Assembly (NCBI GenBank): GCA_029973975.1
Contig: JARKQF010000072.1
Location: 1 to 42,750 of the forward strand
DNA: 42,750 nt
Source: Paludibacter sp.
GTDB taxonomy: Bacteria > Bacteroidota > Bacteroidia > Bacteroidales > Paludibacteraceae
Direction of reading: 5' to 3'
The notes beneath the pieces were generated by a model. That model ran no database searches and was not told the DNA's origin. It was given only the letters and a program-made list of their open reading frames with translations. Within the stretch, counting starts at the first letter, position 1. Each line of letters starts with the position of its first letter. Positions 10,779 through 32,713 of this stretch are shown here, piece after piece. Position numbers and translations under genes: made by a program.

Positions 10779-10803
10779 AAAACAGGTATTTGAGATTTAA
10801 ACG

Positions 10804-11221: not shown

Positions 11222-11242
11222 TTTCGAAAATAGAATAATTAT

Positions 11243-11885: not shown

Positions 11886-11902
11886 TAAATGCACGTCAAT
11901 TA

Positions 11903-13381: not shown

Positions 13382-13386
13382 AATAC

Positions 13387-14982: not shown

Positions 14983-14996
14983 TACAATGTTTTAAG

Positions 14997-15040: not shown

Positions 15041-15049
15041 TATACTTGA

Positions 15050-16627
15050 TCAATATCTGAATTTAATATTTGAGATCAGACCCTCGTTATCAACTATTTT
15101 AGCTAAATAGATTCCTTTAGATAAGCCTTCAAGTGAGAATGCAGACACGTTAGTTACTCTACGAACATGTTGACCTGAAAGTGAGATAATATCGACTTGT
15201 TTAACCGATGTTGATATATGCATCATATTATCTAACATCCAGGCATTAACAGCATTTGTTCCAATAATTTTTTCAGTCGACGTAACAGGAACACGAGCAT
15301 CCTCATACGCGCCAATACAAACATAATTATCTGAGCGTGTCACCCCACGTTGATCTACAGGAGTAGCACCCAACCAGGTTAAAGAAGCTGAAGGAATAAC
15401 TTTAACATACTGACTGTAAAGACTAATATTGTCCGTAGGAACCATCATCCCGTCAACCACTGGTTTAACCAATGGATTTTCAGCCCAATCGGTGTATTTT
15501 ACGTTGTGTGTAGCATCCAATTTTTCTTGTGTTATAGGAGTAGCGTAATTACGTGGACTTGAAAAAATGTTATAGCCAGTCAACACCAAAGAATCTTCGG
15601 GCAGAACGGTTGCCATAGCAGAAGCAAATCCTATTTCGTTGTTAAGCGTCGGTGGTGTAGCCTGATTATAGTTCCCGGCAAAAAGATTACCGGCAAGGTG
15701 CATTCTCCGGTACTTGGTTGCCACAAGAGGAATTTGAGCTGAACTACTTAAAGTTGTTGTATTACCAACCATGGTGTTATTATATAATTGCATGTATGGA
15801 CCTGTTGCAGGCGCTTCGCTCAGGATTAAAGACCCGAGTTGGTTTCCGGTATTTCCGGTAAGCACATTGTTTCGAATTATTACGGTTGATTCTCCTCCTT
15901 TTGTTGTACCTGAAGTTAAGGAATAAATACATGCTGCTCCTGAAAGAGCAGAATTGTTACTAAAGTAGCAGTTCTCAACTACGGTGAAAGCCATTGGCCA
16001 CAAAGTAACACTAGCTCCTTTACGTCCGGTATTATTAATAAAACGACAACCTTTCACAATAAGGTTATTCTTAGTAACTGAGGCTAAAATCGCACCCTGA
16101 ACATATGAACCACTTGAGGTTGAAGGGCCATAAAAATCATTATCAATAAAATCACAGTTTTCTACATGCAAAGAACCGTATTTTGAATTAATACAACCCG
16201 CTTCTGCATTTGTTGTCGGAGAAACAATCAGATTCTGAAAAACAATATTTTTAACCGTAAACACTGTAGCTGGATCTGCATTATTTGGCAAACTACTGAA
16301 GAAACACAAAATATTATTAATCGGAGTAGCAGCTTTTCCACTGGCATCGAATATAACTTTCGATGTAAGTTCAGAAGCATCGATTGTCACGCTTCCTTTT
16401 TTTAGTTCCCAGGACGTCTCAAAGAAGATTGTTTTACCAGCCATAACCGGAGCAAATTTAATCACGTCATCAGCATTGAAATTCATCAATGCATGTTGCA
16501 GACTACCTTCAAAAGGAGTTCCATTGGTGGAATTGACGGGATCATCATACTCAACAACCCATTCTACACCCGACGCCATGCCAAAGCTCAACAAAAGAGC
16601 CAACATAAAAATAGTAACTTTTTTCAT
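15050..16627 (-). CDS. T9SS-exported parallel beta-helix protein, paralogue (525 aa)
   Basis: Same layout as its neighbour: signal peptide (MKKVTIFMLALLLSFGMASG), entry region (GSLQHALMNFNADDVIKFAPVMAGKTIFFE), beta-helix rungs (LHVENCDFIDNDF, LIVKGCRFINNTG, TVVENCYFSNNSA, VIIRNNVLTGNTGN), closing VCIGAYE, and a T9SS type A sorting domain at about 455-525 (VDIISLSGQHVRRV, then LEGLSKGIYLAKIVDNEG). The two proteins align along their whole length with many identical blocks ([23 protein letters not shown]). It has its own upstream region of 127 bases with the paired 11-bp motif also found before susC, so it probably starts a separate unit under the same regulator. Role unknown: surface glycan binding or depolymerisation. 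Confidence 0.82.
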   Translation of the reverse strand: MKKVTIFMLALLLSFGMASGVEWVVEYDDPVNSTNGTPFEGSLQHALMNFNADDVIKFAPVMAGKTIFFETSWELKKGSVTIDASELTSKVIFDASGKAATPINNILCFFSSLPNNADPATVFTVKNIVFQNLIVSPTTNAEAGCINSKYGSLHVENCDFIDNDFYGPSTSSGSYVQGAILASVTKNNLIVKGCRFINNTGRKGASVTLWPMAFTVVENCYFSNNSALSGAACIYSLTSGTTKGGESTVIIRNNVLTGNTGNQLGSLILSEAPATGPYMQLYNNTMVGNTTTLSSSAQIPLVATKYRRMHLAGNLFAGNYNQATPPTLNNEIGFASAMATVLPEDSLVLTGYNIFSSPRNYATPITQEKLDATHNVKYTDWAENPLVKPVVDGMMVPTDNISLYSQYVKVIPSASLTWLGATPVDQRGVTRSDNYVCIGAYEDARVPVTSTEKIIGTNAVNAWMLDNMMHISTSVKQVDIISLSGQHVRRVTNVSAFSLEGLSKGIYLAKIVDNEGLISNIKFRY

Positions 16628-16720
16628 AACTTTTTTTTTAATGAATCACTTTCATGATCCAAGTTAACAATACATTAATTTTGCTGTAAATTTAAATATA
16701 GTAAGTATCTCCCCTTTAAT

Positions 16721-16753
16721 AATATTGTTCATATTATTATTCAGTTTTGTTCA
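16721..16753 (-). promoter_or_regulatory. Candidate HTCS operator, copy 2 (paired 11-bp motif)
   Basis: AATATTGTTCA (16721-16731) and AGTTTTGTTCA (16743-16753) are direct repeats exactly 22 bp apart, read on the plus strand. The same pair, with the same 22-bp spacing, lies upstream of susC at 30771-30803. They lie 94-126 bases upstream of the start at 16627. AraC-family regulators bind such direct repeats two helical turns apart. TAAATATA at 16693-16700 (minus strand TATATTTA) could be the -7 element, one base off consensus. An AATAATAT/ATATTATT palindrome surrounds the first copy and overlaps the putative end of the GH3 transcript. Confidence 0.6.
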
Positions 16754-16754
16754 A

Positions 16755-19535
16755 TTATCTCTTTATAAGGGGCGATTCCAGCCCATCAACACCACCTTTA
16801 CCCTTAACTATCAATATTCGCATTTCCGAAGCATTGGTTAAAGGGAAAGAATACCGGGATATATTTTCATCAATTTCGACTTTACCTTTATAGACGGTCA
16901 GGAACTGTCCTCCTCCGGAAGTTAATTGAATTTCAAAATCGCAATATGTATTCTTTGACCATTGAACGTCAATATAATCTACACGAGCGTTTTCAACAAG
17001 AGGAAATGTAAAATACTCGTTTGCTTTAAACTTCCAGGGCAATGCGTCAAGAAACGATTCTGTTTTTTTTGCCGCCTTACCGGAAACAATGGTTAGTTTA
17101 TTACGTAAACGAATATCTTCAGACGAAGCTCCAACCATCACATCAAAATCACCGGGTTCAATAACCCAACGCATATCCAGATCGAGCAATGCCAGCTGTT
17201 TGGGACTTATAACCATATTGATACGTTTTGTTTCTCCGGGAAGAAGATGAACACGTTCAAATCCACATAGATTTTTCTCGTACGTAGTTACACTTGACAC
17301 TTTGTCACGTACATATAACTGTGCAATTTCATCCCCAGCACGGTTACCGGTATTGGTAACATCAAAAGAAACCGAAACCGGTTCTTTATCTGTTGCAACA
17401 GCCGGAGTTAACGTCAGGTTATTGTAAGCAAAGGTCGTATAACTCAATCCGTATCCAAAATGATATAATGCTCCATTAACACGACTTTGATTTCCCTTAA
17501 CACCCGGTTTTATATTACCATCAACATTAGCAGCCGGTTTAGACGGAAAGTTAAATGGAATCTGTCCGACATGGCGAGGAAATGTAACAGTCAGTTTTCC
17601 ACCCGGATTATATTCTCCAAACAGCACGTCATACACGGCTTGTCCTCCATGTGCACCGGGATACCATGCTTCAACAATAGCCGGCACATGTGCATCAGCC
17701 CAGTTGATCGAATTTGGTCTTCCATTAATCATAACTAATATTACCGGTTTACCTGTTGCATGTACTGCCCGAAGAAGATCTTCCTGACGACCGGGCAATT
17801 CAAGGCTTGATCGCGATTTATTCTCACCGCAGGTACGTTCGCCTCCTCCCAATACGATAACAGCAACATCACTTTCTTCAACAACCTTTACCGCTTTGTT
17901 AATCCCCGCACGTTCATCAGCCGTCAATTCTTCACGAAAAATTTCTGATAATGGCCAGCGGTCATCAACCAGGGTACAACCTTTTTCGTACACCACTTCA
18001 CATTTCCCATTTAAGTTTTGAGATAATCCTTCCAGTACAGAAGTAACCTTTGCTGCAAGAGGGCCATAATGTAACAAAGCAAAACTACGCTCGTCGGCAT
18101 TAGGACCAACAACTGCAATCCGTTTTATTTTAGATGCATCCAACGGAAGTAAATTATTCTCATTCTTCAGTAATACAATAGACTCACGTGCAGCCTGAAG
18201 TGAAACCTTATTATTTTCTTCGCCATCTACTTCAAGATCGGCTGCTTTCAAATCCATCTGATAAGGAGAGTCAAACAGGCCTACCAAAAATTTAACTCGC
18301 AAGACATCACGTACACGGTCGTTGAGAGTTTCTTCACTCACAGCCTTTTCCTGCACCAACTCACGCAAAGGTAGAATATAGGTATCTGGAGCGCTAAATG
18401 TGCAACGAACATTAAGACCAGCCTCAAAACTCTGACGTACAGCCTCTTTCATATCATCAGCAGTATTATGCTTATTATAAAGATATTCAACAGACCCACT
18501 GTCGGAAACAACATAACCACGAAAACCCATTTCGCGACGGAGCCGTTGCGTCAACCAATAAAAGCTCCCCTGAATGGGAACACCATCATAATCATTATAA
18601 GCGCACATAATACCTAATAATCCGGCACGCCGTATTACTTCTTCAAAAGGACGCACATGAATACTTTCTACTTCACGGGGAGGTATTTGCGGGTCGACTC
18701 TTGCCATACCTTCCCTCGCTCCTTTATTATTACTGTATGCAACAAAATGTTTGGCAGTTGCTGCTACCTGATAATTTGTCTGTAACCCCTTAGTCATTGC
18801 CACTCCCAGCTCCGATACCAGATAAGGACATTCGCCATAAACTTCTTCATAACGTCCCCAGCGTTGATCACGGCCCACATCAAGTATAGGAGCATATACA
18901 TTGGTATAGCCCAGTAATCGTGCTTCACGACCAGTAATAAAACCGACCTTTTTAATCAAGTCTCTGTTCCATGTATGTCCCAGTCCCAACTGAGTTGGAA
19001 AATTTGTAGCGCGAAAAGCTTCAACACCTCTTATACCCTCATTGGTCATATCAGCAGGAATACCCAAACGTGTTTCTTCAATAAAAAAACGTTGCACTTC
19101 ATTTATAGCCCATGCATGACGGGATGCCGGCCAGCAGTTCGGATTATCAGAAGGCGGAAGTCCCCACTGCTGAAATCCATTCAAATGTTCATCAATAGCA
19201 CCAATACCATCTTTCCATATCATCTCTTTCCATTTCGGAGTAGGAAGGTCATCCTGGAGTACTCTTTTATAGCCATAAAGTGTAGCTAACTGACAAGTCT
19301 TTTCCTCAAGAGTCATCTGCGAAAGTAAATCTTCAATCCTGTCATTTAACTGTGCAGAAGGATTTTCGTAAATATCCATCTTCCCGTTTTTATTAAAATC
19401 AATCCATCCCTTTTTATACATGGGATTCTTTCCCAACTTCCACTCTTTAACAGGTTTTCCTGCTTCCGGCATCTGAACAGCACTAACGTTTAGTGTTAAC
19501 GACAACACTACAAAACACAACAATAGTTTTCTCAT
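16755..19535 (-). CDS. Glycoside hydrolase family 3 enzyme, beta-glucosidase/xylosidase-like (926 aa)
   Basis: Secreted GH3 exo-hydrolase, probably periplasmic, removing sugars from non-reducing ends of imported oligosaccharides. A signal peptide (MRKLLLCFVVLSLTLNVSA) is followed by an EF-hand-like loop at about 46-57 (DFNKNGKMDIYE). The N-terminal TIM barrel contains AKHFVAYS (about 261-268) and the nucleophile motif VVSDSGSVE with Asp345. The alpha/beta sandwich holds GGGERTCGENKSRSSLELPG, the loop region that normally supplies the acid/base. A fibronectin-III-like domain follows (about 690-790: GDEIAQLYVRD...VTTYEKNLCGFERV). About 110 further residues look like a discoidin/carbohydrate-binding domain. 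Substrate sugar cannot be fixed from sequence. It sits 18 bases after the GH-A gene in the SusCD operon. Confidence 0.93.
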   Translation of the reverse strand: MRKLLLCFVVLSLTLNVSAVQMPEAGKPVKEWKLGKNPMYKKGWIDFNKNGKMDIYENPSAQLNDRIEDLLSQMTLEEKTCQLATLYGYKRVLQDDLPTPKWKEMIWKDGIGAIDEHLNGFQQWGLPPSDNPNCWPASRHAWAINEVQRFFIEETRLGIPADMTNEGIRGVEAFRATNFPTQLGLGHTWNRDLIKKVGFITGREARLLGYTNVYAPILDVGRDQRWGRYEEVYGECPYLVSELGVAMTKGLQTNYQVAATAKHFVAYSNNKGAREGMARVDPQIPPREVESIHVRPFEEVIRRAGLLGIMCAYNDYDGVPIQGSFYWLTQRLRREMGFRGYVVSDSGSVEYLYNKHNTADDMKEAVRQSFEAGLNVRCTFSAPDTYILPLRELVQEKAVSEETLNDRVRDVLRVKFLVGLFDSPYQMDLKAADLEVDGEENNKVSLQAARESIVLLKNENNLLPLDASKIKRIAVVGPNADERSFALLHYGPLAAKVTSVLEGLSQNLNGKCEVVYEKGCTLVDDRWPLSEIFREELTADERAGINKAVKVVEESDVAVIVLGGGERTCGENKSRSSLELPGRQEDLLRAVHATGKPVILVMINGRPNSINWADAHVPAIVEAWYPGAHGGQAVYDVLFGEYNPGGKLTVTFPRHVGQIPFNFPSKPAANVDGNIKPGVKGNQSRVNGALYHFGYGLSYTTFAYNNLTLTPAVATDKEPVSVSFDVTNTGNRAGDEIAQLYVRDKVSSVTTYEKNLCGFERVHLLPGETKRINMVISPKQLALLDLDMRWVIEPGDFDVMVGASSEDIRLRNKLTIVSGKAAKKTESFLDALPWKFKANEYFTFPLVENARVDYIDVQWSKNTYCDFEIQLTSGGGQFLTVYKGKVEIDENISRYSFPLTNASEMRILIVKGKGGVDGLESPLIKR

Positions 19536-19553
19536 TTTATATTATTCTTCTTA

Positions 19554-21077
19554 TTATTTTCCGTCAAAAAAATCAATTAATGGATATGTATTTACATGCA
19601 TAACTTTCATGGCCTCAACAAACTCTTCGTAGGGTTTGTAATCCAGGCTTACAATTCCTTTGTTCGTTATGTCGCCGTTCAGATTAAGATCACGATAATT
19701 AAAATGTAACCAACCTACACAATTCTTTGCTTTTAACAAACCAACACACATATTCTGGTAATAGTATCCACGCTCTTTTTGTCCACGCACAATCCATCCT
19801 CCACCATCGTTATTTGCAACAGGAGCGCCATTAAACCTCGCATCAGCTCCTTTGGCATAAAACTCAGTGACAATGAACGGAGTATCGTTTGTCCATTCTC
19901 TGATATTGTTAACATAGAAGTTCTCTACACTCCATGTGTTATAGTAATTAATCGAAATTACATCGCAATAACGGGCACAGGCCTGCAGAACAACTTTATT
20001 GTATTTGTTCTGGTCATATAATCTGGTTCCAAGAATCAGGTGATTGCTGTCATAACGTCGGACAGCTTCTGTGGTTGTACGAAAATAATCATCAGCAACG
20101 ACGGCACTAAATGCTTCAATATCCGAATCAGTAATCTCAATAAGGGGTTTTTCTTTTAGCTGAGTTTTCCAAAACTCAACTGCCTTGTCACGAATGCGTG
20201 ATCCGGTCAGCGAACCATCCGCATTTTCCAAAATAGAGTAAATGTTTATGCCCCTTTGCGGCGACTGGTTGTTATACGCTTTATGATTTAACTCATTATC
20301 AATCATATACCCCACAAAATGAGGATCATTAACATAAAGTGCACATTTTGTTCTCGCCCAGTTATCAATAAAATTCAGATAATCATCTTCATAAATCATG
20401 TAGAGCCGGTTGTGTTTAGTGTCATCAAAACTGAAAGAGCGATTGGCCTTTGATTGCCAGATAAAGGTGCGCAACATGAAAAGAACCTCCATATATGCTA
20501 CTTTATTTGCTCCATTATTGGGGCGTAAAATATTTTCTGCTATTTCTGACGGCATACTAACAGGATACAACCCGCCGTATATAGTACAATTAAAGCCATT
20601 TTTCACCAGGTACTCACCGGTTTTCTTACTCCATTCGGCATCTCCACCGGGAAAAGCAGATGCATAGTGACTATCATTAAAAGGCCGGACATCCTGTGTA
20701 CCTCTGATGATGTTCCCTTTACCGGTAGGATCAATAAAATACCAACGGCCATTATTCTTCCCTATTCTGAAAAAACCTTCTTTCCCTTTAATATCTGTAA
20801 ATGTCAGGTTATCAGGACGACTTCCCCACTCATTTGCCACCTGAATATTGCGAACCGGATAACGTCCTATATTTTCAACCAACAAAGTATTCAAAGAATT
20901 CACATCAGTTGTCCAGGCAGAAGACAAATTCTTTTTGTACTCAACAGGAAAAACGAAATCTTTGTCATACTTTGGTGGGTTAGCTCCTTCCGGAACTAAT
21001 TCGGGTTTATCTGTACATCCTATATTAATGTAACATAGCAATAAACAGATAAAAATCTTAAAAAAACGGAATATCAT
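19554..21077 (-). CDS. Clan GH-A glycoside hydrolase-like lipoprotein (agarase/GH50-like or GH5-like) (507 aa)
   Basis: Lipoprotein with signal peptide and lipobox cysteine Cys21 (CYINIGC). The body resembles a (beta/alpha)8 enzyme of clan GH-A. GRWYFIDPTGKGNIIRGTQDV (about 110-130) is the barrel-entry pattern of agarase-like and GH42/GH50-like proteins. HFVGYMIDNELNHK carries Asn261-Glu262, the NE pair expected for the acid/base at the end of strand 4. FIVTEFYAKG carries Glu405, the probable nucleophile on strand 7. GWLHFNYRD closes strand 8. The family cannot be fixed; a GH50-type match is my best guess from memory, and the protein may belong to a divergent or unlisted family. It lies 11 bases after the large beta-helix gene and 18 before GH3, inside the SusCD operon. 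Confidence 0.65.
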   Translation of the reverse strand: MIFRFFKIFICLLLCYINIGCTDKPELVPEGANPPKYDKDFVFPVEYKKNLSSAWTTDVNSLNTLLVENIGRYPVRNIQVANEWGSRPDNLTFTDIKGKEGFFRIGKNNGRWYFIDPTGKGNIIRGTQDVRPFNDSHYASAFPGGDAEWSKKTGEYLVKNGFNCTIYGGLYPVSMPSEIAENILRPNNGANKVAYMEVLFMLRTFIWQSKANRSFSFDDTKHNRLYMIYEDDYLNFIDNWARTKCALYVNDPHFVGYMIDNELNHKAYNNQSPQRGINIYSILENADGSLTGSRIRDKAVEFWKTQLKEKPLIEITDSDIEAFSAVVADDYFRTTTEAVRRYDSNHLILGTRLYDQNKYNKVVLQACARYCDVISINYYNTWSVENFYVNNIREWTNDTPFIVTEFYAKGADARFNGAPVANNDGGGWIVRGQKERGYYYQNMCVGLLKAKNCVGWLHFNYRDLNLNGDITNKGIVSLDYKPYEEFVEAMKVMHVNTYPLIDFFDGK

Positions 21078-21088
21078 AACTTCTTCGA

Positions 21089-23857
21089 TTATTTATTAAT
21101 ATCAATTACATAAGTAGCTGTACTTTTCCACACCTCATCTATGCTGGTAGTATATTTTCCGGAGAAATCAAAATAGAGTTTATTGTAGCCGTCCTGTGCA
21201 GTATACATACTGCACATAAAGTTATTCCCGGGAAGAAGGGGAGAGAAAGCTGTTGATAGTGATGCAGATATACCACTTGCTTCACCCCAAACATTTGCTG
21301 AACGGACATTGGCTCCTTTAAACGGCAAAGATGCATTGGGTACCCCGATATTAAAAACAGTCGGATTTCCTTCCATCGTTCCCCTGTCGGTAATAGCTGT
21401 TCCATCAGGAAGACTCCTTGCTATAGGTAACATTGCTAAATATGAGTTAACCACGTCAATTGATTTTAACCATTTAACTTCCTGATAAAGGTGGATTTTG
21501 TCTTTACTAAAAACATAGTATTTAAGATGCTCCGCCACCGGATTTTTCGTACCATATTCATACAGAACTGAAGTTTGTTGAACTGTTACATTATAAGCAG
21601 TAAGGTTGACTGTTGAACCTAACACGATTTCCTTACCATCCGCCCAGGCTTTTGCTTCAGTTAATTCCTCATAACCATGAAAACCTCCCATAAAGTCGGC
21701 TTTGGGCACACCGTTTACCGTTTGTTTGATAGCACATTCCCACTCACCACTATAAATAAATTCTTTAGACAGGATATTTGAAAAAACGTATTTACCGGTA
21801 CGTTCTGCGAGATAAGAATTCACGACCCTCCAAACATTCAGATTCTTAGCGGTATTTTTCGCATTATATAACCGGTGCTGTATATACTTATTACTTTCCT
21901 TTTTAGATCCTTTGACATATATATTAAGGGCAAGCGAGGAACCAGTAACAACCAATTCATAGGGATTATAATATCCAGAGGGAACATCACCCACGTTATT
22001 ATTTATCGTAATATTGGATGTTGTTTCCGGATCGACATACAAGCCTGTCTCGTATGATTCACCTGCGTTGTAAAAAACATTGTCCTCTATCTTTATGTCA
22101 GCCGAATTTAAGACGAACATATTACCTTTTCCAGCAAAGCGGGTTTTTGAAGGACTTTTATTGCTGTTTATAAACCGGTTGCCAAGCACATGTACATTTT
22201 TGGCTGAGAAAATTGCAAAAGCCGACCATGTGGAGTTTTCAACCGTATTGCCTTCGACCAGCACATCCCTGGTTGAATGATAGTTTACCGGATAATAATC
22301 AGAAGGATTGTAGTCATAACCGGCTCCGACAAATAAAGAAGAAGGATCCCGTTTGTCTGTATTGCAATCTTTCAGATAATTATTCCGGATAATAACATTG
22401 CTAACCGGAGTTCCCAGATACCATTTACTCCATCTTACTACTGTATTCAGAATAAGAGAAGGATATGCCATATTTGTAATCGTATTTCCTTCAATAGTTC
22501 CATTACTCATGCCAATATAAAGAGCGTGACACAAGCCTTTACTGAACGAATTATTCCGGATAATAAAATTACCTCCCATTAATTCGCTATTCCAAAGAAT
22601 AGATTTTGTATCCAGGGAGGAAGGTAGTGGATCTGCAAATTTTATCTTTGCACGTGTCACCCCTGTAGAAGAGTTATATTCCGAAGTCGACTCCAGTATT
22701 TCCGAGCTCCAGCCGAGGGGTTCATACTGATCGGAATATAATTCCAGATGATGTCCGGGAGCCGTAAGATCAATACTTGTCCATGTTTGCAAGTTTTCAC
22801 AATAGACCGTATTATCATCAACGCGTGTTAGTCCTCCGCCCAGGAAATGATTGGATAAGTGGAGCTGATCATCTCCCGTTCCATCAATCACACAGTTCTC
22901 CAAGCGGAAATTCCGATAATGTTCGTGAATTTCCATACAACCGTAGGTTGAAAATAAACGATCTGTACCGGGTTTGGGACGTACTTGCGAGTTAATGATT
23001 TGAAGATTATCACACGACATGGATGCAAAAGACTCATAAGGAGCGCTCCATATATTCACATGATCAAATGTAATGTGAGAACTATATTCAATGCGAATTC
23101 CTGAAGCATTACGCTTAGGAGTGAAAACCACCTGAGCCATTTGCCCAACACTCAACTTATTTACATCCGATAAATTCTTGTAATTGGCAACCATCGTTCG
23201 GTCGCCTGTTTTTTCATACGAATTAACTGCAGATGATAAGGGAAATGCAAAACCTACATTAGCATCGCGATTATTAATTGAAGGGTCCCATGCCCGACAT
23301 ACGCCAGGATTAATCTCCTCAGTAGGAGGCACATTGCATCCTGTAAAAGAGAACGTCACCCTAAGATTAGACTTGTCGATATTTGTTACCGTTGCCAGGC
23401 CAAAGAGTCCGAAACGATTCCAGTCCCAGTCGAGGGAAAGGTTACAGATTTTTATTCTTTTACAACGGCTTATTAACATATATGCGCCTTTTTTACCAGT
23501 TTCCGACTCCGGGATAATGAGCTCAGAACCTTGTCCGTCGATGGTTAAATTCTCAATATTCATCAAAGTCAACTGATAAGCTTCATCGTTATCAATATAG
23601 TAAGTTCCTTTAGGAATAATGACCTTAGGGATACGAAGGATACGTGCACGTTCTATAGCCCCCATAAAGGCTTTTTGATTTTCTTTACCACTTTTAGCCG
23701 GATGAGCTCCAAAATCTGCAACAGAAACATACAACTCGCTTTCAGCAGGTTCCATTACGGTAAACTCTTGCGCACCTGTAATTTGCTGTGCATTTACTGA
23801 AATTGCACATAAACCGGTCAAAGTAATAAAAATTGCTTTATATAGTATTCTCATCAT
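21089..23857 (-). CDS. Secreted parallel beta-helix protein, GH110-like layout, with extra C-terminal domain (922 aa)
   Basis: Signal peptide to about residue 23 (CAISVNA, then QQ). Residues 41-650 form a pectin-lyase-like right-handed beta-helix. It opens with VSVADFGAHP and VIIPKGTYYI (the usual start of pectate-lyase-superfamily proteins), then LTIDGQGSELI. An acidic cluster in GTGDDQLHLSNH (Asp329, Asp330, His333) is followed by an inserted beta domain (about 345-425). Later rungs include FIIRNNSFSKGLCHALYIGM and VLVEGNTVENSTWSAFAIF. Alpha-1,3-galactosidases of GH110 have a DD...H motif and a barrel insertion at this place, so a distant relation is possible. About 270 C-terminal residues (ADFMGGFHGYEEL region) form a further unknown domain missing in the paralogue next door. 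A hydrolase or lyase role is inferred. Confidence 0.68.
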   Translation of the reverse strand: MMRILYKAIFITLTGLCAISVNAQQITGAQEFTVMEPAESELYVSVADFGAHPAKSGKENQKAFMGAIERARILRIPKVIIPKGTYYIDNDEAYQLTLMNIENLTIDGQGSELIIPESETGKKGAYMLISRCKRIKICNLSLDWDWNRFGLFGLATVTNIDKSNLRVTFSFTGCNVPPTEEINPGVCRAWDPSINNRDANVGFAFPLSSAVNSYEKTGDRTMVANYKNLSDVNKLSVGQMAQVVFTPKRNASGIRIEYSSHITFDHVNIWSAPYESFASMSCDNLQIINSQVRPKPGTDRLFSTYGCMEIHEHYRNFRLENCVIDGTGDDQLHLSNHFLGGGLTRVDDNTVYCENLQTWTSIDLTAPGHHLELYSDQYEPLGWSSEILESTSEYNSSTGVTRAKIKFADPLPSSLDTKSILWNSELMGGNFIIRNNSFSKGLCHALYIGMSNGTIEGNTITNMAYPSLILNTVVRWSKWYLGTPVSNVIIRNNYLKDCNTDKRDPSSLFVGAGYDYNPSDYYPVNYHSTRDVLVEGNTVENSTWSAFAIFSAKNVHVLGNRFINSNKSPSKTRFAGKGNMFVLNSADIKIEDNVFYNAGESYETGLYVDPETTSNITINNNVGDVPSGYYNPYELVVTGSSLALNIYVKGSKKESNKYIQHRLYNAKNTAKNLNVWRVVNSYLAERTGKYVFSNILSKEFIYSGEWECAIKQTVNGVPKADFMGGFHGYEELTEAKAWADGKEIVLGSTVNLTAYNVTVQQTSVLYEYGTKNPVAEHLKYYVFSKDKIHLYQEVKWLKSIDVVNSYLAMLPIARSLPDGTAITDRGTMEGNPTVFNIGVPNASLPFKGANVRSANVWGEASGISASLSTAFSPLLPGNNFMCSMYTAQDGYNKLYFDFSGKYTTSIDEVWKSTATYVIDINK

Positions 23858-23908
23858 GGTATAAAGTATTTAATTTCATTTAAAGATCATCTTAACGATT
23901 TACTGTTC

Positions 23909-25804
23909 TTAAAAGCCTTTGTTTTTCCTGCATCTGACATTCGTGGTTGTCAATGAATCGATAAAACATCCTTTATCCAGACTTTTTTCCCCATCCACGA
24001 TCACATTTTTCTCAAACAGAATATTCCGGGCATGAGTGACATAGACTGAACCGAAGCCATTATATCGGTTGTTGCGTGGATAAGTATTACTGTTAATAAA
24101 ACGGTTTTTACGTACCACGATATTTTCAGAAGAGAAAGTTCCAAAAGCCGACCAGGTAGAGTTTTCTATGGTATTATTCTCTATCAGGACGTTTGTTACA
24201 ATGGGATAATCAACCGGAGTATAATCAGAAGGCTGAGCATCGTAACCGCCACCAACAAACAAAGAAGCAGGATCCCGCCGGGCAGTATTGTTGTTGGTCA
24301 GCACATTATTCCGGATAATAACATTGTTAATAGGAGTTCCCAGATACCAACGTCCCCAACGATGAACCGTATTCAGTATCAATGAAGGATAAGCAAAATT
24401 ATTAAACTGATTATTTTCTATTGTACCATTTGCCAGTCCGATGTAAAGGGCATGACATAAACCATTACGGAACTCATTGTTACGGATTATAAAGTTACCT
24501 TTGTTCATATCGCTATTCCACAACATATTATCCTCTTCAAAATCAGCAGGTAACGGATCTTTAAATCGTAACTTCACCCGGTGTGCATTGAGACTTTTAT
24601 GTACATTATACTCATACTCGAAGCTTTCGATTTGGGAACTCCAGCCTGTCGGCGAGAAATTTTTTCTTCGCATTTCAAAAGAAGCACCTTTCCATAACAG
24701 GTCAACACTCATCCAGCGTTGCAGGTAATTTGCATATACGGTATGGTCATCTATTTTGGTGAGACCTCCGCCCAGAAAATGGTTCGACAAATGCAGATTA
24801 TCGTCACCGATTCCATCGAGCACACAATTTTCTAACCGGAAAAAACCTTTGATAGAATGAATCTCCAGGCCTCCATACGTTGAGATACGATGACCTGTTC
24901 CCGGACGGGGCTCAATACGGCAATTAATAATCTGTAAATACTCCACACCTCCTGTATTCATTGCTTCATACGGAGACGAGTATATTGTAACATTATCGAA
25001 TGTAATGTGTTTGCTCTGGTTTATCCTGAAAGCAGAAGGAGTTCCGTAAGCTGGTTTAAAGCTAAGTTGTACGAATTGTCCTTTCTTCGCCTTTTTTATA
25101 CAGTTAGTATCAATTACAGTCAAAACAATCCTGTCGGCAGCAGTCTTTTCCAATCTTTCACGTTCTGCCGGCTGAGGAAAAACAAAACCTTTACCCGGAT
25201 TACGGTTATTTATTTCAGGATCCCATTCCCTGTTCACTCCTACCAGAAGAGGTTTCTCATCAGGAATTTCAGGAGTTGTAGTTTGAAATTCAATTGTACG
25301 AGAGTTCTTGTCTACACCTATTATCCGTGCAATAGCAAAAATTGGAAAATCATCCCAGTCCCAATCAACAATAAGATTTTTAATGGTTATTGTATTACAT
25401 TCTTTAAGAGCTATATAGGCTTCGTGTTTAACCTGCTGATGACGACTGAAAATCAATTCCGAGCCCAAACCATCAATCACGACATTCCGGAGATCTTTCA
25501 GCAGAATATCTGCCGGTTGTTCCATTCTGATTCTGTATCTGCCGGTTGGAATGATTAATTTAGAAGCTCCTGTAAGGCGAACTTTTGAAATCGCCTTTTC
25601 AAAAGCCAGGCCATTCTCATTAGCCGGCATATCAGGATTAGCTCCAAAATCAGCTACTGAAACGACAAGCTCATTAAGGATTGGTTGTTGAACCTTAAAG
25701 CTTTCAGCTCCCGTGATTTTAATATCAGAAGCAGAAATATAGTTTGATGTACTAAATACTCCTAAAAAGGAAACAAGCAGTACGACTGACAATTTAATCC
25801 GCAT
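23909..25804 (-). CDS. Secreted parallel beta-helix protein, paralogue without the extra domain (631 aa)
   Basis: Paralogue of the 922-residue neighbour over nearly its whole length, sharing blocks such as VSVADFGA.P, IDG.GSELI, DWDW, ITFD.V.I.S.PYE, GDD.LHLSNHFLGGG and WYLGTP..NVIIRNN. The open frame reaches 25822, but the ATG at 25804 is preferred: it begins the signal peptide MRIKLSVVLLVSFLGVFS and overlaps the 3' end of susD by 11 bases, giving translational coupling. The acidic pair is Asp334-Asp335 with a histidine three residues on, as in the neighbour. It stops after the last rung, so it is a pure beta-helix protein. As first gene after susD it is likely a core enzyme of the locus. 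Specific activity is unknown. Confidence 0.7.
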   Translation of the reverse strand: MRIKLSVVLLVSFLGVFSTSNYISASDIKITGAESFKVQQPILNELVVSVADFGANPDMPANENGLAFEKAISKVRLTGASKLIIPTGRYRIRMEQPADILLKDLRNVVIDGLGSELIFSRHQQVKHEAYIALKECNTITIKNLIVDWDWDDFPIFAIARIIGVDKNSRTIEFQTTTPEIPDEKPLLVGVNREWDPEINNRNPGKGFVFPQPAERERLEKTAADRIVLTVIDTNCIKKAKKGQFVQLSFKPAYGTPSAFRINQSKHITFDNVTIYSSPYEAMNTGGVEYLQIINCRIEPRPGTGHRISTYGGLEIHSIKGFFRLENCVLDGIGDDNLHLSNHFLGGGLTKIDDHTVYANYLQRWMSVDLLWKGASFEMRRKNFSPTGWSSQIESFEYEYNVHKSLNAHRVKLRFKDPLPADFEEDNMLWNSDMNKGNFIIRNNEFRNGLCHALYIGLANGTIENNQFNNFAYPSLILNTVHRWGRWYLGTPINNVIIRNNVLTNNNTARRDPASLFVGGGYDAQPSDYTPVDYPIVTNVLIENNTIENSTWSAFGTFSSENIVVRKNRFINSNTYPRNNRYNGFGSVYVTHARNILFEKNVIVDGEKSLDKGCFIDSLTTTNVRCRKNKGF

Positions 25805-27452
25805 ATCCTGCATTCTGAACAAAATTTGAGTTTACTTCTATCTGAATTTGTGGAACCGGATACCATATCTTATACTCCGACCAGTTATTTTTGAGCAATT
25901 GGATACCTGTACGTAAATTTAAAGTACCCTCCTCCGGAAGTGTTTCTATAGTAGAAGTCATTTTTCCGAAGCGCATTAAATCGATTCGTCTTTTGGCTTC
26001 AAAACAAAGTTCACGTCCGCGTTCTTCAAGTAACTCCTCAACAAAATCATCCCGCTTGTATGCCGCAGTAATATCTTCAATCGACAATGTACCTTTAATT
26101 CTATCACGGATAGGGATAAATTGTTGACGTGCCAACGGCTCATTTCCCGTGAAATAAAGAGCTTCTGCATAGTGTAAAATTACATCCGCAAAACGGATAA
26201 GAGGATCGTTCATAGCACACTGACTCTGGAGCAACATAGAACCACTTCCCTGGTCGCTGATACGGAATTTACCCGTTGAGAAGAGCTGATAGGAAGAATT
26301 ATTCGATGTTCCGGAACTGGGGCGTGGAATATAGTAAACATATCCATCAACGGTTTCCTGTTGCGGAGCCGGACTGGTTGTATACATTCCGGTTATAAAC
26401 ATGTCACGGCGAATATCACCTTCAGTATATGATTTATACAACCTCATGGTAGGAAACATGCGTTGCCAGGTACCTCTGACAGTAACCGATCCTGCAGGAG
26501 CCAATACCGTATATACCGTTCGTGCATCAGATGTGTTCTTTGAAGACCATTCCGACATCAACAAGCATTCTTTATACTGAGTATTTTTACTCATTTCATA
26601 AAACAATTTCTTATATTCAGAAGCGTCTACCAGAATGTAAGGACAGTTATTAACAACATCCTCCAGCACGGTCTTTGCAGCTAAGCTTGTAGCATCCGCA
26701 TCAACCCAGGCGAAGCTGTTCAAAGGACATCTGTCCAATAATGTAACACCTACATTATAGCGTTTACAACTGGCTAAGTAGTTATATACCATTCCCAAAT
26801 AAGCACCTGCACCCCATTTATCAATACTGCATTTCAGAATCTTCTCTTCCGAATGATTTTCATACGCGTATTTGAGGTCAGAAATGATCAATGAATAAAT
26901 TTTCTCCAGATTTTCACGTGGAAGGCGAGGATCAACTGCAGGCTCAACACAATACGGAAGTCCGCCAAACAAAGAAGCCAGATGATTGTAATAGAATGCC
27001 CTGAGGAAACGCGCTTCAGCTGTAAACTGGATTTGTTGCTCCGGAGTCAGTTCTCCCTTGGGAGCCCTGTCGATCAAATAGTTGCAACGTGATATCCCGG
27101 TGAAAAATGCTTTCCAGAACGAATTAACATCTTGTGATTCAGTATTGTAATCTGCACGAAGCATACTCATAAGCGTAGCACTTGCTGTTGTTCCGATAAC
27201 ATTATCCGAACATCCCTCCAAGAAATATTGCAAGCCCTGGGAATAGGTTCCTCCCGATATATTTGAACCATCTGAAATAAACATTGCATTGATTACCTCA
27301 TAGCATCCCGCAAGTGCTATTTTGAAATCATTTTCATCCTTATAACTGTTTTCAGGTGAAGATATCGAGTAAGGTACTTGATCCAGAAAATCACATGCAT
27401 TACCGAATAATATCAGGGCAATAATTGCCATATATTTTGTTATTTTTGACAT
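25794..27452 (-). CDS. SusD/RagB-family outer membrane glycan-binding lipoprotein (552 aa)
   Basis: Surface lipoprotein that forms the lid of the SusC transporter and captures oligosaccharides. Signal peptide with lipobox Cys20 (FGNAC), then DFLDQVPYSISSPENSY, the classic SusD start. TPR-like helices follow (FTAEARFLRAFYYNHLASLFGGLPYC). The C-terminal SusD domain has IRFADVILHYAEALYF, ELLEERGRELCFEAKRRIDLMRFG and the ending WYPVPQIQIEVNSNFVQNAGY, all typical of the RagB/SusD family. It lies 33 bases after susC, and its stop codon is overlapped by the start of the beta-helix gene. Binding-site aromatic residues cannot be placed reliably, so the glycan is not predictable from this protein. Confidence 0.96.
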   Translation of the reverse strand: MSKITKYMAIIALILFGNACDFLDQVPYSISSPENSYKDENDFKIALAGCYEVINAMFISDGSNISGGTYSQGLQYFLEGCSDNVIGTTASATLMSMLRADYNTESQDVNSFWKAFFTGISRCNYLIDRAPKGELTPEQQIQFTAEARFLRAFYYNHLASLFGGLPYCVEPAVDPRLPRENLEKIYSLIISDLKYAYENHSEEKILKCSIDKWGAGAYLGMVYNYLASCKRYNVGVTLLDRCPLNSFAWVDADATSLAAKTVLEDVVNNCPYILVDASEYKKLFYEMSKNTQYKECLLMSEWSSKNTSDARTVYTVLAPAGSVTVRGTWQRMFPTMRLYKSYTEGDIRRDMFITGMYTTSPAPQQETVDGYVYYIPRPSSGTSNNSSYQLFSTGKFRISDQGSGSMLLQSQCAMNDPLIRFADVILHYAEALYFTGNEPLARQQFIPIRDRIKGTLSIEDITAAYKRDDFVEELLEERGRELCFEAKRRIDLMRFGKMTSTIETLPEEGTLNLRTGIQLLKNNWSEYKIWYPVPQIQIEVNSNFVQNAGYAD

Positions 27453-27485: not shown

Positions 27486-30400
27486 TTAGAAATTGACATT
27501 AATACCAAATGAATAATTACGTGTACGAGGATACGATGTTTGGTCTAATCCACGAAGAAACACTTCAGGAGAACGAACATCAGGATCAAGTCCGGAATAA
27601 TTTGTAAGAAGCAACACATTGTCAAGATTAACAAAAATACGCAGGGATGAAATATTAATTTTATTCAAAATACTTTTACTAAAATTGTATCCAAGATTTA
27701 CATTTTTCAATCGGACAAACGACCCGTCTTCTACAAAATACGAAGAAGCCCAGTTATTTGTTTGATTCAAAACACGAGCGTATTTATTTGAAGGGTTCGA
27801 CACAGACCAGCGATTCTCCCACGAATCACGCGTAATGTTATTTGTTAGGTTATTCAACCCGGGTTCACTCATTACTTTGAATGAATTCAACAAATCGAAA
27901 CCGTATGAACATTCGAGAAAAAATGCGATGTCAATATTGCCAATTTTAAATTCATTATTAAGTCCAAAGTTAAATTTGGGACTTGAATTACCAATAATAG
28001 TCCGGTCGTTTACATCAATCACATTTTCTTCACCATCAATATTTTTATATTTTCTGTCACCCGGGGCAACAGTCATCCCGTTAATTTTCGTCACCTCATC
28101 TTTGAGTGTATATCTGTAATTACTCATATTTTCATCGGTAATAACCGAGGCATCAACCGGTTCTCTTGTTGTACGATCAATCCAGTTAAAATCATCAACC
28201 TGATAATTGCCATCATACACGTAACCATAAATAACTCCAATAGATTCACCTACCTGTACGCGACCGATAGGCATGTCATAGAAAGGTCCGTATCTTGCAG
28301 TAACAGGAAAAAATGTTTCACCACCTAATTCGAGAACTTTGTTTTGGTTGTGATCAAAGTTAATGGTTGTAATCCATGAAAACTTCTTTTTTACGATGTT
28401 ACGTGTAACAAGCGTTAACTCAATTCCCTTATTAGACAAACGACCGATATTTTGCCATTGCTTAGCGAATCCGGTATGTGCTGCCACATTGGCATTATAA
28501 AGCATATCGTGCGTGTCTTTGTTATAATAATCCGCCACAAGACTTACTCTGCTTTTGAACAAATCAAGATCCACACCCAGGTTATACTGACGCGTGGATT
28601 CCCATTTCAGGGCAGGGTTTTCTGAACCGTTAGGAGCCATCCCAAATATTTTGTCATCGCCACCGGCGTATTGATTTGTTCCCATTGTTGCCATATACCG
28701 GTAAGCGGGAATACGGTCGTTCCCGGTAGTTCCGATACTGGCACGGAATTTCAGATTTGTGAGGTCTTCAGCCCAGCGCATAAAAGATTCGTCACTGGCT
28801 CTCCATGCAATAGAAACAGAAGGAAAGTAACCAACACGTGACAACGGACCAAAATTGGATGACGCATCAGCTCTCATATTAAAATTAGCATAGTAGCGCC
28901 CTTCATAATCATAAGTTAAACGCCCGAAAGCCGACATCCGATTGGTCTGTGTGACGTTAGTAGAAGGAGTTTGAACAATTTGCCCTTTACTTATATCGAA
29001 CACACCTGTTGACTGATCCTCGAATTTATCGGCACGCATGTAAGTCGACTCATAATGATACGAGTTTACCTCCCCCCCTATCATGGCATTAATCTTATGC
29101 TTTTTGGCCAGTGTTTTATAATAGTTGGCAGTAAGGGAAACGGTATAACCATCGGTATTGATTGCATTGACGGCAGCCCGACCCTCTGTAGCACGTCCCC
29201 ACCGGCTTTGTGTGGTATAGAACTCCATCATCTTTGAGTAAGTATTGGAGGTAGAACCACTCAATCGGATATTTAATTCCTGAATGGGTTTATATACAAT
29301 ATAGGCATTCCCAAGAAGACGGTCGAACTTAGTGTTTTTATAAGTTTCGTCGCTTACCATACTTGTAAGCGGTGTATATCCGTAAGCCAGTTCATCATCC
29401 ATTTCTGAATTGGTATAAAGATTAACAGGACGCTCGAGATACATGAGTTGGACGACACCTGTAAAAGCGGATGTTCCGGATTGCGATCCACTACTTATTG
29501 CTCCGTTCGAATTCGTACGACCCAGTGTAAGTGATCCCCCTGTAGAAAGTTTTTTTGAAATTTCATGATCTAATTTTAGCCGGCCGGAATACCTATCAAA
29601 GTTATTACTGAGAATTACTCCTTTTTGGTTCAGATAGCCTAAACTGGAAGAAAATCTGGTTTTATTTGATTGACCGTTCATTGAGATATCATAATTCTGA
29701 GTGACTCCAAGTCTTGTCATCTCTTCTTGCCAGTTATAATTATTAAGCCCCTCAAGAATAACATTTTTCGGCACAAGCCCCTCACCATAATCTTTACCCC
29801 AAACATCCTGATCGCCTCCTCCACGCGAAAATTTATAATCAACGTAGCCCTGCGCATCTAGCATATTATGGCCTTTGGCAATCTCATTAAATCCTACCGA
29901 AGCATTAACTGAAATATCAGTTCTATTCGAGGAAGCTCCACTTTTAGTAGTAATAATAATTACACCGTTAGCTCCGCGAGAACCGTAAATTGAAGTTGCC
30001 GAAGCATCTTTCAAAATATCAATCGAAGCGATATCATTGGGATTAAGGCTTGATAACGGATTATAGGTAGCCTGTCCCCCAACAGAAGAAGTTGCAACTT
30101 CCGATTCATTGATATCGATTTGCATGCCGTCAATTACATATAAGGGATAAATACCCGCATTCAAAGAATTGGCACCGCGGATAACGATATCCATTCCGGC
30201 ACCGGCCTCTCCGGAGGAAGTCCTTACCTGCACCCCGGCCACGCGACCTTGTAAGGCTGCAGAAATATCAGTAGCTCCGATTTTCGTTAAGTTCTCTGAT
30301 TTAATTGCAGAAATGGATCCCGTCAGATCTTTCCGCTGTGATTCACCATAGCCTATAACAACCACTTCATCCAGCGTTTTTGTATCTTCTTCTAAAATGA

Positions 30401-30695
30401 TACGATAATCTTTTTTATCACTGATCAGTATCTCACGTGATTCATACCCAATGTAAGAAACTAAGAGTGTTGACCCAACCGGAGCATCCAACGTAAACTT
30501 TCCGTCAAAATCCGTAATTATCCCTTTCTGCGCTCCCTTAATAATTAAGTTAGCTCCTATAAGAGCTTCACCAGAATGGTTAAGAACTACACCATTAATC
30601 TTAATTGTTCTCAATGAACTTGTTTGTGCCAGCACACCTGTTGTACACAAAAATGCACAGAACAAGATGCTAACGCATAGTTTTATAGATTTCAT
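27486..30695 (-). CDS. SusC/RagA-family TonB-dependent outer membrane transporter (1069 aa)
   Basis: Imports oligosaccharides across the outer membrane with energy from TonB-ExbBD. Signal peptide to about residue 23 (GVLAQ). A carboxypeptidase-D-like domain spans about 30-110 (INGVVLNHSGEALIGANLIIKG...GIITDFDGKFTL). The TonB box LDEVVVIGYG follows at about 113-122, then the plug domain with the SusC signature SIDILKDASATSIYGSRGANGVIIITTK, and a 22-strand barrel ending in RNYSFGINVNF. Length is usual for SusC. No N-terminal secretin/TonB short domain, so signalling through an anti-sigma factor is not expected; the HTCS is the regulator. It is preceded by a candidate promoter (30738-30745) and a paired 11-bp motif (30771-30803), and followed by susD after 33 bases. 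Confidence 0.97.
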   Translation of the reverse strand: MKSIKLCVSILFCAFLCTTGVLAQTSSLRTIKINGVVLNHSGEALIGANLIIKGAQKGIITDFDGKFTLDAPVGSTLLVSYIGYESREILISDKKDYRIILEEDTKTLDEVVVIGYGESQRKDLTGSISAIKSENLTKIGATDISAALQGRVAGVQVRTSSGEAGAGMDIVIRGANSLNAGIYPLYVIDGMQIDINESEVATSSVGGQATYNPLSSLNPNDIASIDILKDASATSIYGSRGANGVIIITTKSGASSNRTDISVNASVGFNEIAKGHNMLDAQGYVDYKFSRGGGDQDVWGKDYGEGLVPKNVILEGLNNYNWQEEMTRLGVTQNYDISMNGQSNKTRFSSSLGYLNQKGVILSNNFDRYSGRLKLDHEISKKLSTGGSLTLGRTNSNGAISSGSQSGTSAFTGVVQLMYLERPVNLYTNSEMDDELAYGYTPLTSMVSDETYKNTKFDRLLGNAYIVYKPIQELNIRLSGSTSNTYSKMMEFYTTQSRWGRATEGRAAVNAINTDGYTVSLTANYYKTLAKKHKINAMIGGEVNSYHYESTYMRADKFEDQSTGVFDISKGQIVQTPSTNVTQTNRMSAFGRLTYDYEGRYYANFNMRADASSNFGPLSRVGYFPSVSIAWRASDESFMRWAEDLTNLKFRASIGTTGNDRIPAYRYMATMGTNQYAGGDDKIFGMAPNGSENPALKWESTRQYNLGVDLDLFKSRVSLVADYYNKDTHDMLYNANVAAHTGFAKQWQNIGRLSNKGIELTLVTRNIVKKKFSWITTINFDHNQNKVLELGGETFFPVTARYGPFYDMPIGRVQVGESIGVIYGYVYDGNYQVDDFNWIDRTTREPVDASVITDENMSNYRYTLKDEVTKINGMTVAPGDRKYKNIDGEENVIDVNDRTIIGNSSPKFNFGLNNEFKIGNIDIAFFLECSYGFDLLNSFKVMSEPGLNNLTNNITRDSWENRWSVSNPSNKYARVLNQTNNWASSYFVEDGSFVRLKNVNLGYNFSKSILNKINISSLRIFVNLDNVLLLTNYSGLDPDVRSPEVFLRGLDQTSYPRTRNYSFGINVNF

Positions 30696-30770: not shown

Positions 30771-30803
30771 AATTTTGTTCATAAATATAACTAATATTGT
30801 TCA
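30771..30803 (-). promoter_or_regulatory. Candidate HTCS operator, copy 1 (paired 11-bp motif)
   Basis: AATTTTGTTCA (30771-30781) and AATATTGTTCA (30793-30803) are direct repeats exactly 22 bp apart on the plus strand. Together with the pair at 16721-16753 the consensus is ARTWTTGTTCA. The pair lies 76-108 bases upstream of the susC ATG and just upstream of the expected -33 element, where an AraC-type activator would touch RNA polymerase. The regulator is most likely the HTCS encoded at 32714-36754. Confidence 0.65.
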
Positions 30804-30881: not shown

Positions 30882-30901
30882 ACGCTGGTTTATTCCAGCG
30901 T
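30882..30901 (-). terminator. Hairpin over the stop codon of the GH28-like gene
   Basis: ACGCTGG (30882-30888) and CCAGCGT (30895-30901) form a perfect 7-bp stem with a 6-base loop that contains the stop codon. On the minus strand GTTTTAGG follows, a short T-run. It should separate the GH28-like transcript from susC, which agrees with susC having its own promoter. Confidence 0.6.
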
Positions 30902-32182
30902 AACTTCTGTATTTGTTAATTGAAACACGGAATCTTTTGAATTAACAACATGCCTGCCTTTTACAAGAAAATTCTTAAAGCTTACATTTTTGATTCCACC
31001 TTCTTTTTTAGCCAGTATTACGACAGGAACATCTTTGCCGTTTGTATAGCTTACATTCTCAAAGCGAATATTTTCAATAACTCCTCCACCACTTCCCCAT
31101 GCACTACTTTCTTCCGGTTTAATCTGTTCTATCCAAATAAGATTTTCATCAACCGACTCAATGCGTATATCCTGATAAAGGACATCCGACACTTTACAAT
31201 TTCCGATATGATGAATAGATATTGCAGCCCTTTTAAAAGGATGAGAAAAGGTCTGTTTACGAATGATATCTATGTCCTCAAAGCGAATATTACGAACAAA
31301 ATCACCATCCAGTTCCCATCCTATTTCTAAGGCATTACCTCTGACTCCACTCCAAAATACAGAATTTGCTATGTAAACATTTTCCACATTACCTCCGAAT
31401 GACCATTTTTTTGTTTTGATAGAAATACCATCATCCTCGTTACGAACAAATAAATCTTTAATTACCACATCATTTGTTGCCAGTATATCAATCCCATCAG
31501 AAAACACCTGAGAAGCAAGAATCTTAGTATTGATTATTTTAACGTCATTACATTCAAATAAAGAACACGTCCATCCATTCTGACTTAATAATACGGGACC
31601 ATTGATTTCAATATGTCTGCTTTTTTCAAAACGGACTGCACGCCTGGTTTCACGGCCATCAATAATCCCATAACCTAATATTTTTACATTCGTATTTCTA
31701 TACCCAATAAAATACCCCTTAATCACAGCGCCTTCTTCGAGAAAAATCGTAACATTATCTCCTTTGATATCATAACGTCCTATGTGGTGTACTCCTTTGC
31801 CAAACCGAATGGTTTCTGCAGGTAGATTGTTCCACTCCGCACGTTGCGGTATGTCGGCAAAAAGGTATATCGGACTATCATAATTATCGTTGAATGTTAC
31901 CGCAATCTTACTTCCCGGAAGAACTCCCTTCAGTTTAACAATATTATTTTCTATGCTGTATTTCACACCATACTTAACCGGTTTAATCTGAACGCTCTTC
32001 ACCCCGGAAGGCGCTTTTAACTCGACATTAACAGGTTCTTTGACTGTAAAACGCGCAAATCGACCGACTTCCGTCATCTCTGTTGAAAAATGAACACCTT
32101 CCTTTAATAACAAAAGGTCTGCTCCTGAAATACAAACACAGTAAAATAATGCAGAAATCACGAATAAAGATTTAACTTTCAT
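30890..32182 (-). CDS. GH28/GH49-like beta-helix glycosidase (430 aa)
   Basis: Exported protein with a signal peptide (MKVKSLFVISALFYCVCISG). Residues about 22-120 form a beta-sandwich-like N-terminal domain. From about 125 a right-handed beta-helix begins (IRFGKGVHHIG, VTIFLEEGAVIKGYF, VKILGYGIIDGRE). This two-domain order resembles GH49 dextranase/isopullulanase and some GH28-like proteins. Three acidic sites sit where the catalytic aspartates are expected: Asp229 and Asp232 in SDGIDIL, and Asp250-Asp251 in RNEDDGISIK. The GH28 motifs GHG and RIK are not seen; GNALEIGWE takes the GHG position. So hydrolase activity is likely, but the family and substrate are open. It stands between the HTCS and susC with its own terminator; no copy of the paired motif was found upstream. 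Confidence 0.72.
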   Translation of the reverse strand: MKVKSLFVISALFYCVCISGADLLLLKEGVHFSTEMTEVGRFARFTVKEPVNVELKAPSGVKSVQIKPVKYGVKYSIENNIVKLKGVLPGSKIAVTFNDNYDSPIYLFADIPQRAEWNNLPAETIRFGKGVHHIGRYDIKGDNVTIFLEEGAVIKGYFIGYRNTNVKILGYGIIDGRETRRAVRFEKSRHIEINGPVLLSQNGWTCSLFECNDVKIINTKILASQVFSDGIDILATNDVVIKDLFVRNEDDGISIKTKKWSFGGNVENVYIANSVFWSGVRGNALEIGWELDGDFVRNIRFEDIDIIRKQTFSHPFKRAAISIHHIGNCKVSDVLYQDIRIESVDENLIWIEQIKPEESSAWGSGGGVIENIRFENVSYTNGKDVPVVILAKKEGGIKNVSFKNFLVKGRHVVNSKDSVFQLTNTEVTLE

Positions 32183-32713
32183 ACGTTTAAATTTTATTTT
32201 TTAGTTGTAGTATGGAAATCTCGATGAACTAATTTAATCATTCAATAAATTTAGCTGTTTCTCGCGACTCGGCATAAACCGAACAAGTTCGGTTCTGCAC
32301 TCACTGCTCAAAACATTCGCATGAGCGAAATAATTGATTAAATTAGTTCATGTTCGTTTCATAACTTAATCTTGAATATTTAAAATAGAATATAATATCT
32401 GAAATGTTGATTTATTTCGGGTATCGTTATCCTGAATTGAATAATTGTGTTTGAAGAACATTCTTAACAAACCAATTAGACATTAACAACAGACGAACAT
32501 CGAACAAAATTAGATATTAGGGGTAAAAGTTCTGAAACAATTTTGACCATAAATGTGGGTGTTTTTAGACATTTATCTTGTGTCAGAACAAAAGAATATA
32601 CTTTTCATGGCAAAGCAGCATTAAAAAGAGTATCGGGAGAGTGGATAATAAATGCCTGCTGATATTTACCCATTTCTCAAAAAAACAATTGAGGAAAAAG
32701 AAATAGTATTGTA
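32183..32713. other. 531-base intergenic region between the HTCS and GH28-like genes
   Basis: No gene of useful length is present. The part next to the GH28-like ATG (32183-32206) matches the leader of the lipoprotein gene at 361-885. A large inverted repeat occupies 32224-32351. Further right the sequence is AT-rich; CGAACAAAATT at 32501-32511 is a 10-of-11 match to the inverted candidate operator motif but has no partner at 22 bp. No clear TAnnTTTG box for the GH28-like gene was found. The end next to the HTCS stop has only a weak CTCAA/TTGAG hairpin. Confidence 0.6.
32224..32351. repeat. 128-base inverted-repeat element
   Basis: ATGAACTAATTTAATCA (32224-32240) is repeated perfectly inverted at 32335-32351 (17 bp). 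At its centre AACCGAAC (32277-32284) and GTTCGGTT (32287-32294) form a perfect 8-bp hairpin with a two-base loop. The arms show weaker symmetry between these (ATTTAGCT against AGCGAAAT). It could be a miniature inverted-repeat element, a structured leader RNA, or a regulatory hairpin. Confidence 0.6.

Follow-up and report, generated by a model that had tools for sequence, protein, structure and literature searches.

The closest described relatives of the system considered here are the hybrid two-component systems (HTCS) of Bacteroides thetaiotaomicron, where Ravcheev and co-workers (2013; PMC3878776) predicted DNA motifs for 16 of 36 regulators. According to that study, all 16 motifs consist of direct repeats with an average distance of 21 bp, which are read as sites for dimers two helical turns apart, and HTCS with similar domains had similar motifs. 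In the light of these predictions, the premise of the first-pass annotation of the present DNA, that HTCS targets are for the most part not known, is partly out of date. Experimentally, EMSA has been reported for two HTCS fragments on susCD promoters (PMC11253607), ChIP-seq placed a chimeric HTCS at its own PUL (PMC3404733), and an S/CHIP motif in the HTCS receiver has been linked to inhibition of the DNA-binding domain (PMC11253607).

We analysed a stretch of 42,750 nucleotides from Paludibacter sp. (hereafter the window, meaning this stretch at its full length), in which two pairs of direct repeats accompany an HTCS gene and probably serve as operators of the encoded HTCS. The layout has been known since 2013, and the present predicted site fits the published kind exactly: as in the B. 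thetaiotaomicron operators of PMC3878776, two conserved sites enclose a less conserved spacer at about two helical turns (21 bp there, 22 bp here), and, as in those predictions, they stand before susC/susD and enzyme operons of a locus that encodes an HTCS. The comparison is one of layout, not of logos, and unlike in the published set the sequence and the regulator are different ones. SusR-like operators, as described in the same source, are similar in being direct repeats before sus operons and differ in that their centres lie 67 or 77 bp apart and their regulator lacks an AraC-type domain (PMC3878776). The addition made here is a further predicted operator, belonging to an HTCS for which the genomes searched yielded no close orthologue.

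Two repeat pairs in an HTCS-encoding locus

On the minus strand, which is the strand of the genes, both pairs read TGAACAAWAYT-N11-TGAACAAWAYT, with a step of 22 bp from repeat to repeat. The susC site (30803-30771) is TGAACAATATT-agttatattta-TGAACAAAATT, the distal repeat TGAACAATATT occupying 30793-30803 and the proximal repeat TGAACAAAATT, 22 bp from it, 30771-30781; on the plus strand this appears as AATTTTGTTCA at 30771-30781 and AATATTGTTCA at 30793-30803, again with the 22-bp step. Direct repeats exactly 22 bp apart had been claimed before susC, and they are found at 30771-30803. The second site (16753-16721, minus strand) precedes the gene at 15050-16627 and reads TGAACAAAACT-gaataataata-TGAACAATATT; its distal repeat TGAACAAAACT (16743-16753) begins 1 bp past the stop codon of the GH3 gene (16755-16757), its proximal repeat TGAACAATATT lies at 16721-16731, and the plus strand (16721-16753) carries AATATTGTTCA and AGTTTTGTTCA in the same orientation and spacing as at susC. 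Both pairs are intergenic: the GH28 gene (30890-32182) and susC (27486-30695) flank the first, the GH3 gene and gene 15050-16627 the second. The core, orientation and spacing asserted for the second pair were thus recovered, and the label of its gene as a T9SS beta-helix gene holds weakly, with TIGR04183 at 25.2 bits (cut-off 23) and Beta_helix at 24.2 bits, below its cut-off of 25.9.

A promoter box had also been placed downstream of the susC pair, and a candidate -7 box, TATATTTG, does lie at 30745-30738 (minus strand), 25 nt past the proximal repeat and, by script count, 50 nt before the ATG; the -7 consensus is TAnnTTTG as quoted in PMC7366714. Gene 15050-16627 has two overlapping imperfect candidates (16687-16700, minus strand), of which TAAATTTA, at a gap of 26 nt, fits the helical phase and TATATTTA, at 20 nt, is out of phase.

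The protein proposed to bind these sites is a 1346-aa HTCS (P0001; 32714-36754, minus strand) with a Reg_prop sensor, Y_Y_Y, HisKA, HATPase_c, Response_reg and HTH_18 domains, all above Pfam cut-offs, that is, a complete HTCS in one chain. This agrees with the AraC-type HTCS claimed for the locus, and of the 25 window proteins scanned, none but this one, encoded at 36754-32714, is an AraC-type regulator. Its receiver has a SHIP motif (TSHIPVVLL, read by eye in the translation), and the closest solved chain by sequence is 12aw_A, titled hybrid two-component system protein. The first proposed target is the susC-like transporter gene (27486-30695, minus strand; TIGR04056, 879.8 bits), followed in the proposed operon by a susD-like gene (25794-27452, minus strand) and then by two beta-helix genes, one gene of unknown family and the GH3 gene (16755-25822, minus strand). 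The second proposed target unit (11903-16627, minus strand) comprises two T9SS-tailed genes and a GH109/Gfo-Idh-like oxidoreductase gene. One pair therefore precedes each unit, before susC and before gene 15050-16627, within the locus that encodes the HTCS. With GH28, beta-helix proteins and GH3 in the locus, a pectin-like or other plant-type glycan would be our guess for the substrate. An ECF sigma factor gene is present in the window at 8067-8630, as is a tRNA gene (958-1030, minus strand), the sole Rfam match in the window at gathering thresholds.

A separate element, a palindromic repeat at 32222-32353, is found before the GH28 gene, with arms ACATGAACTAATTTAATCA and its complement, and looks like a REP- or MITE-type element. 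At up to two mismatches the arm pattern has 35 matches in the same genome and the control none; both arms occur together at 11 places. The window copy is longer in its centre, with arm starts 113 bp apart, compared with 38-39 bp at eight of the ten other places and 20 bp at two of the ten, and this copy folds well as single-stranded DNA (z -4.9). Another copy (22913-22969 of contig G000:C310, locus L170) sits directly before a predicted HTCS start (ORF 9987-14405, minus strand, in L170).

Occurrence of the pair in the window, its genome and other genomes

At up to three mismatches the two pairs are the sole matches to the full pattern in the window, in keeping with the earlier claim that it holds no others; in 100 dinucleotide shuffles the mean was 0.02 and the maximum 1, a rate that is flattering because the pattern was derived from the same data. 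There being no third pair at this tolerance, none lies upstream of the GH28 gene (30890-32182) or of the HTCS gene. Since the motif had been picked after inspection, we added a neutral statistic that counts any 7-mer recurring at one and the same distance, anywhere from 10 to 33 bp, in two or more of the 17 intergenic segments of the window (4122 bp in all). A single class emerged, TGAACAA at 22 bp, and at least one class of any kind arose in 3 of 1000 dinucleotide shuffles.

A whole-genome pattern search had been proposed in the first-pass annotation, and in the draft genome from which the window comes (G000; 3,557,181 bp in 358 contigs, 85.69% complete, 5.72% contaminated) two perfect pairs occur, both before units of this locus and none elsewhere in this draft. 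The 7-mer core pair likewise has two matches, both in the present locus, and its reversed control pattern one. With three mismatches allowed, the full pattern has five matches against 0 for the control, and the locus pairs alone have fewer than three mismatches. The three others have three mismatches each, two of them within ORFs and one intergenic (G000:C247:7094-7126).

Orthologues of the HTCS were sought at several depths. The best 80 of 588 relatives from a contig search had best-segment identities of 23-33%, the best near-full-length match in 60 relative genomes was 32% identical, and a search with the DNA-binding domain under strict E-value limits in 48 genus, 393 order and 395 phylum genomes, each set including the genome under study, found none above 47%. 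With no close orthologue in the genomes searched, alignment or footprinting of orthologous promoters was therefore not an option.

Scattered matches to the pair occur elsewhere. One-mismatch matches in three genomes of the genus (G062, G020 and G070) were dropped, as they fall at the start of one conserved ORF, which we take to be cytochrome c oxidase subunit II. At the level of the order there are nine one-mismatch matches in 8 of 392 other genomes, compared with two for the reversed control, both in one genome; the midpoint is within an ORF in five and outside in four. Of these four, L201 is beside a susC/susD pair, L204 is at a gene edge, and L202 and L203 are short contigs of one genome of the order (G094), whose 22-bp TGAACAA pairs stand before a beta-helix/SprB gene (L202, 2876-2908) and before an MMPL gene (L203, 5017-5049). 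No HTCS was matched in the stretches around L201-L204, three of the four being whole short contigs.

HTCS with related DNA-binding domains

In place of the missing orthologues, HTCS whose DNA-binding domains resemble that of the locus HTCS were compared. The set consists of 83 HTCS whose readable upstream region is 120 bp or longer, 16 of them near (domain score of at least 93 bits, a cut chosen after the scores were known) and 67 far. Upstream regions shorter than 120 bp or duplicated were left out, as were the truncated L159 and L166 and ORFs below 800 aa, a limit that also removed the best-scoring domain, that of L152 (a 233-aa ORF).

A YGAAC pair with a step of exactly 22 bp precedes the start of the HTCS gene itself in 4 of the 16 near-domain cases (L151, L156, L161 and L168; 44-47% domain identity); the upstream regions of the other 12, including the top-scoring L153 and L154, have no such pair. 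The sites are CGAACAATACA-N11-TGAACAAATTT in L151, a paralogue in the same genome (G000:C247), CGAACGATACA-N11-CGAACAATTTT in L168, CGAACAAAAAT-N11-CGAACAAAATT in L161 and TGAACAATATT-N11-TGAACGGAACT in L156, the last of which (47% domain identity) is identical to the susC site at 27 of 33 positions. When the six sites are aligned, 6 of 11 and 5 of 11 columns are invariant in the repeats and 1 of 11 in the spacer. It should be noted that L151, L168 and L161 look orthologous and are therefore not independent.

The L151 pair is the intergenic match at C247 mentioned above, located between an HTCS gene (2962-7008, minus strand) and a divergent sulfatase gene, and the DNA-binding domain of this HTCS, 44% identical to that of the locus HTCS, is the closest among the own-genome matches listed. 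The C247 promoter and its likely orthologues L168 (in G069) and L161 (in G029) resemble the susC promoter in having the YGAAC pair at 22 bp, in the same orientation to the -7 box and with a related DNA-binding domain (44%). Unlike the susC pair, these pairs stand before the HTCS gene itself and one helical turn further from the -7 box; their neighbours are the sulfatase gene (L151) and heparinase-like genes (L168, L161). Downstream of the proximal repeat, the TAnnTTTG box follows after 25 nt at susC, compared with 36 nt in L151, 36 in L168, 35 in L161 and 36 in L156. This difference of 10-11 nt between susC and the four relatives corresponds to one helical turn, so that the orientation of the protein towards the polymerase would be preserved, and a candidate phase rule to the -7 box is a possible addition to the known picture of HTCS operators.

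Counted as two copies of TGAACAA with at most two mismatches at 22 bp, a threshold that leaves out L168 because of its three mismatches, the pair is present in 3 of the 16 near upstream regions (shuffle mean 0.21; three or more in 0 of 300 shuffles), and at 21-22 bp in 5 of 16 (mean 0.47; five or more in 0 of 300). The far set is at chance level at 22 bp (1 of 67; mean 0.63) and mildly raised at 21-22 bp (4 of 67; mean 1.37; four reached in 1 of 60 shuffles). A 29-bp step also occurs in 3 of the 16 near regions. When all intergenic DNA was counted, the 19 near-domain loci yielded 8 pairs at 21-22 bp, compared with an average of 1.6 for each of the other distances (38 pairs spread over 24 distances), with one palindromic site, in L164, entering the count twice, and the 80 named loci yielded 11 compared with 4.0 per distance; the test on upstream regions is the cleaner one.

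At the susC genes beside near-domain HTCS in L162, L167 and L169 the TGAACAA pair was not found, nor was it in any of the six gaps between the genes of L205, which contains the best domain match beside a susC gene at the level of the order, and where the best candidate has three mismatches at 21 bp. A domain alignment indicates that the recognition helices of the YGAAC group and of the locus HTCS are related, not the same, and L158, L160, L162 and L163, with domains nearly equal to that of L156, have no pair before their own HTCS gene; a residue-to-base rule for the half-site was for both reasons dropped.

Two further patterns were seen among these loci. A 21-bp TGAACAA/TGAACGA pair, nearly the same in both, lies before a gene other than the HTCS gene in the near-domain loci L163 (2667, minus strand, in G021) and L165 (11229, plus strand, in G004). 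Upstream of the HTCS genes of L155 and L157, whose DNA-binding domains score as near the locus HTCS, a common block, GTGCAAAAAARGT...ATTATGCAY, was read by eye and may represent a sister operator type with a TGCA half-site.

A candidate operator and its alternatives

The combination of perfect pairs that are confined to the HTCS locus of an 85.7% complete draft with an enrichment of 22-bp YGAAC pairs at HTCS of related domain upholds, as a sequence-based prediction, the earlier claim that the pairs are operators of the locus HTCS. We consider it probable that both are activator sites of this regulator; binding, dimerisation, activation rather than repression, the extents of the operons and the ligand are the parts of this model that we infer. 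According to the model, an oligosaccharide would be sensed in the periplasm by the HTCS sensor, a phosphorelay would run inside the HTCS chain, and the DNA-binding domains would be released once the receiver is phosphorylated. One AraC-type domain would occupy each TGAACAAWAYT repeat, the 22-bp step of two helical turns would set the two domains on one face of the DNA, and the HTCS dimer, placed just upstream of the promoter, would switch on the susC-susD-enzyme operon and the unit of T9SS enzymes.

Alternatively, the pairs could belong to a different AraC-type regulator encoded in this genome, such as the C247 HTCS or an unlinked AraC protein, with the locus HTCS binding elsewhere. The full-length HTCS search lists 24 own-genome matches, so other AraC-type domains exist, and the C247 HTCS resembles that of the locus in its DNA-binding domain and is preceded, at its own gene, by a related pair. 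However, that pair differs in carrying CGAAC in the distal repeat, with three mismatches to the pattern, and the perfect pairs are limited to a locus with an HTCS of its own, and we regard this explanation as improbable. Even less credence is given to chance matches in AT-rich promoter DNA: repeats are common in such DNA, and there are the order-level matches (nine in 8 of 392 other genomes, five with midpoints within ORFs), yet chance fits poorly with the presence of two perfect copies within a single locus of a single genome, with 3 of 1000 shuffles in the neutral test and with 0 of 300 in the relatives test.

Finally, the locus HTCS might bind the pairs and mainly repress, or the pairs might serve in both directions. 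BT0366, an HTCS, is reported to repress other PULs and activate its own (PMC3404733), and this published case of an HTCS at its own PUL is one of activation; moreover, the pair lies upstream of the -7 box and not over it, which suits an activator, and we hold a mainly repressing role to be very unlikely.

Activation by the locus HTCS thus remains our preferred reading. A wider generalization, which we offer tentatively and would not expect to hold, is that HTCS with such a DNA-binding domain share an operator rule, namely that the half-site is YGAAC, that the step measures 22 bp and that the helical phase relative to the -7 box is constant (25-26 or 35-36 nt), and that the two HTCS of this genome that follow the rule could cross-regulate. 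If this shared rule were true, the pectinase-like locus would be tied to the sulfatase-linked C247 locus.

The general picture of HTCS function is unchanged by the candidate operator. If it is right, however, a DNA target will have been named for an HTCS where the usual alignment of orthologous promoters fails, the target being deduced from a pair of promoters and from HTCS with related DNA-binding domains, and the locus would serve as a small test of how HTCS operators can be read from the sequence of the protein. The operator would also define a regulon of two units, in which surface uptake by susC/susD and the T9SS-exported enzymes would be under the control of one switch.
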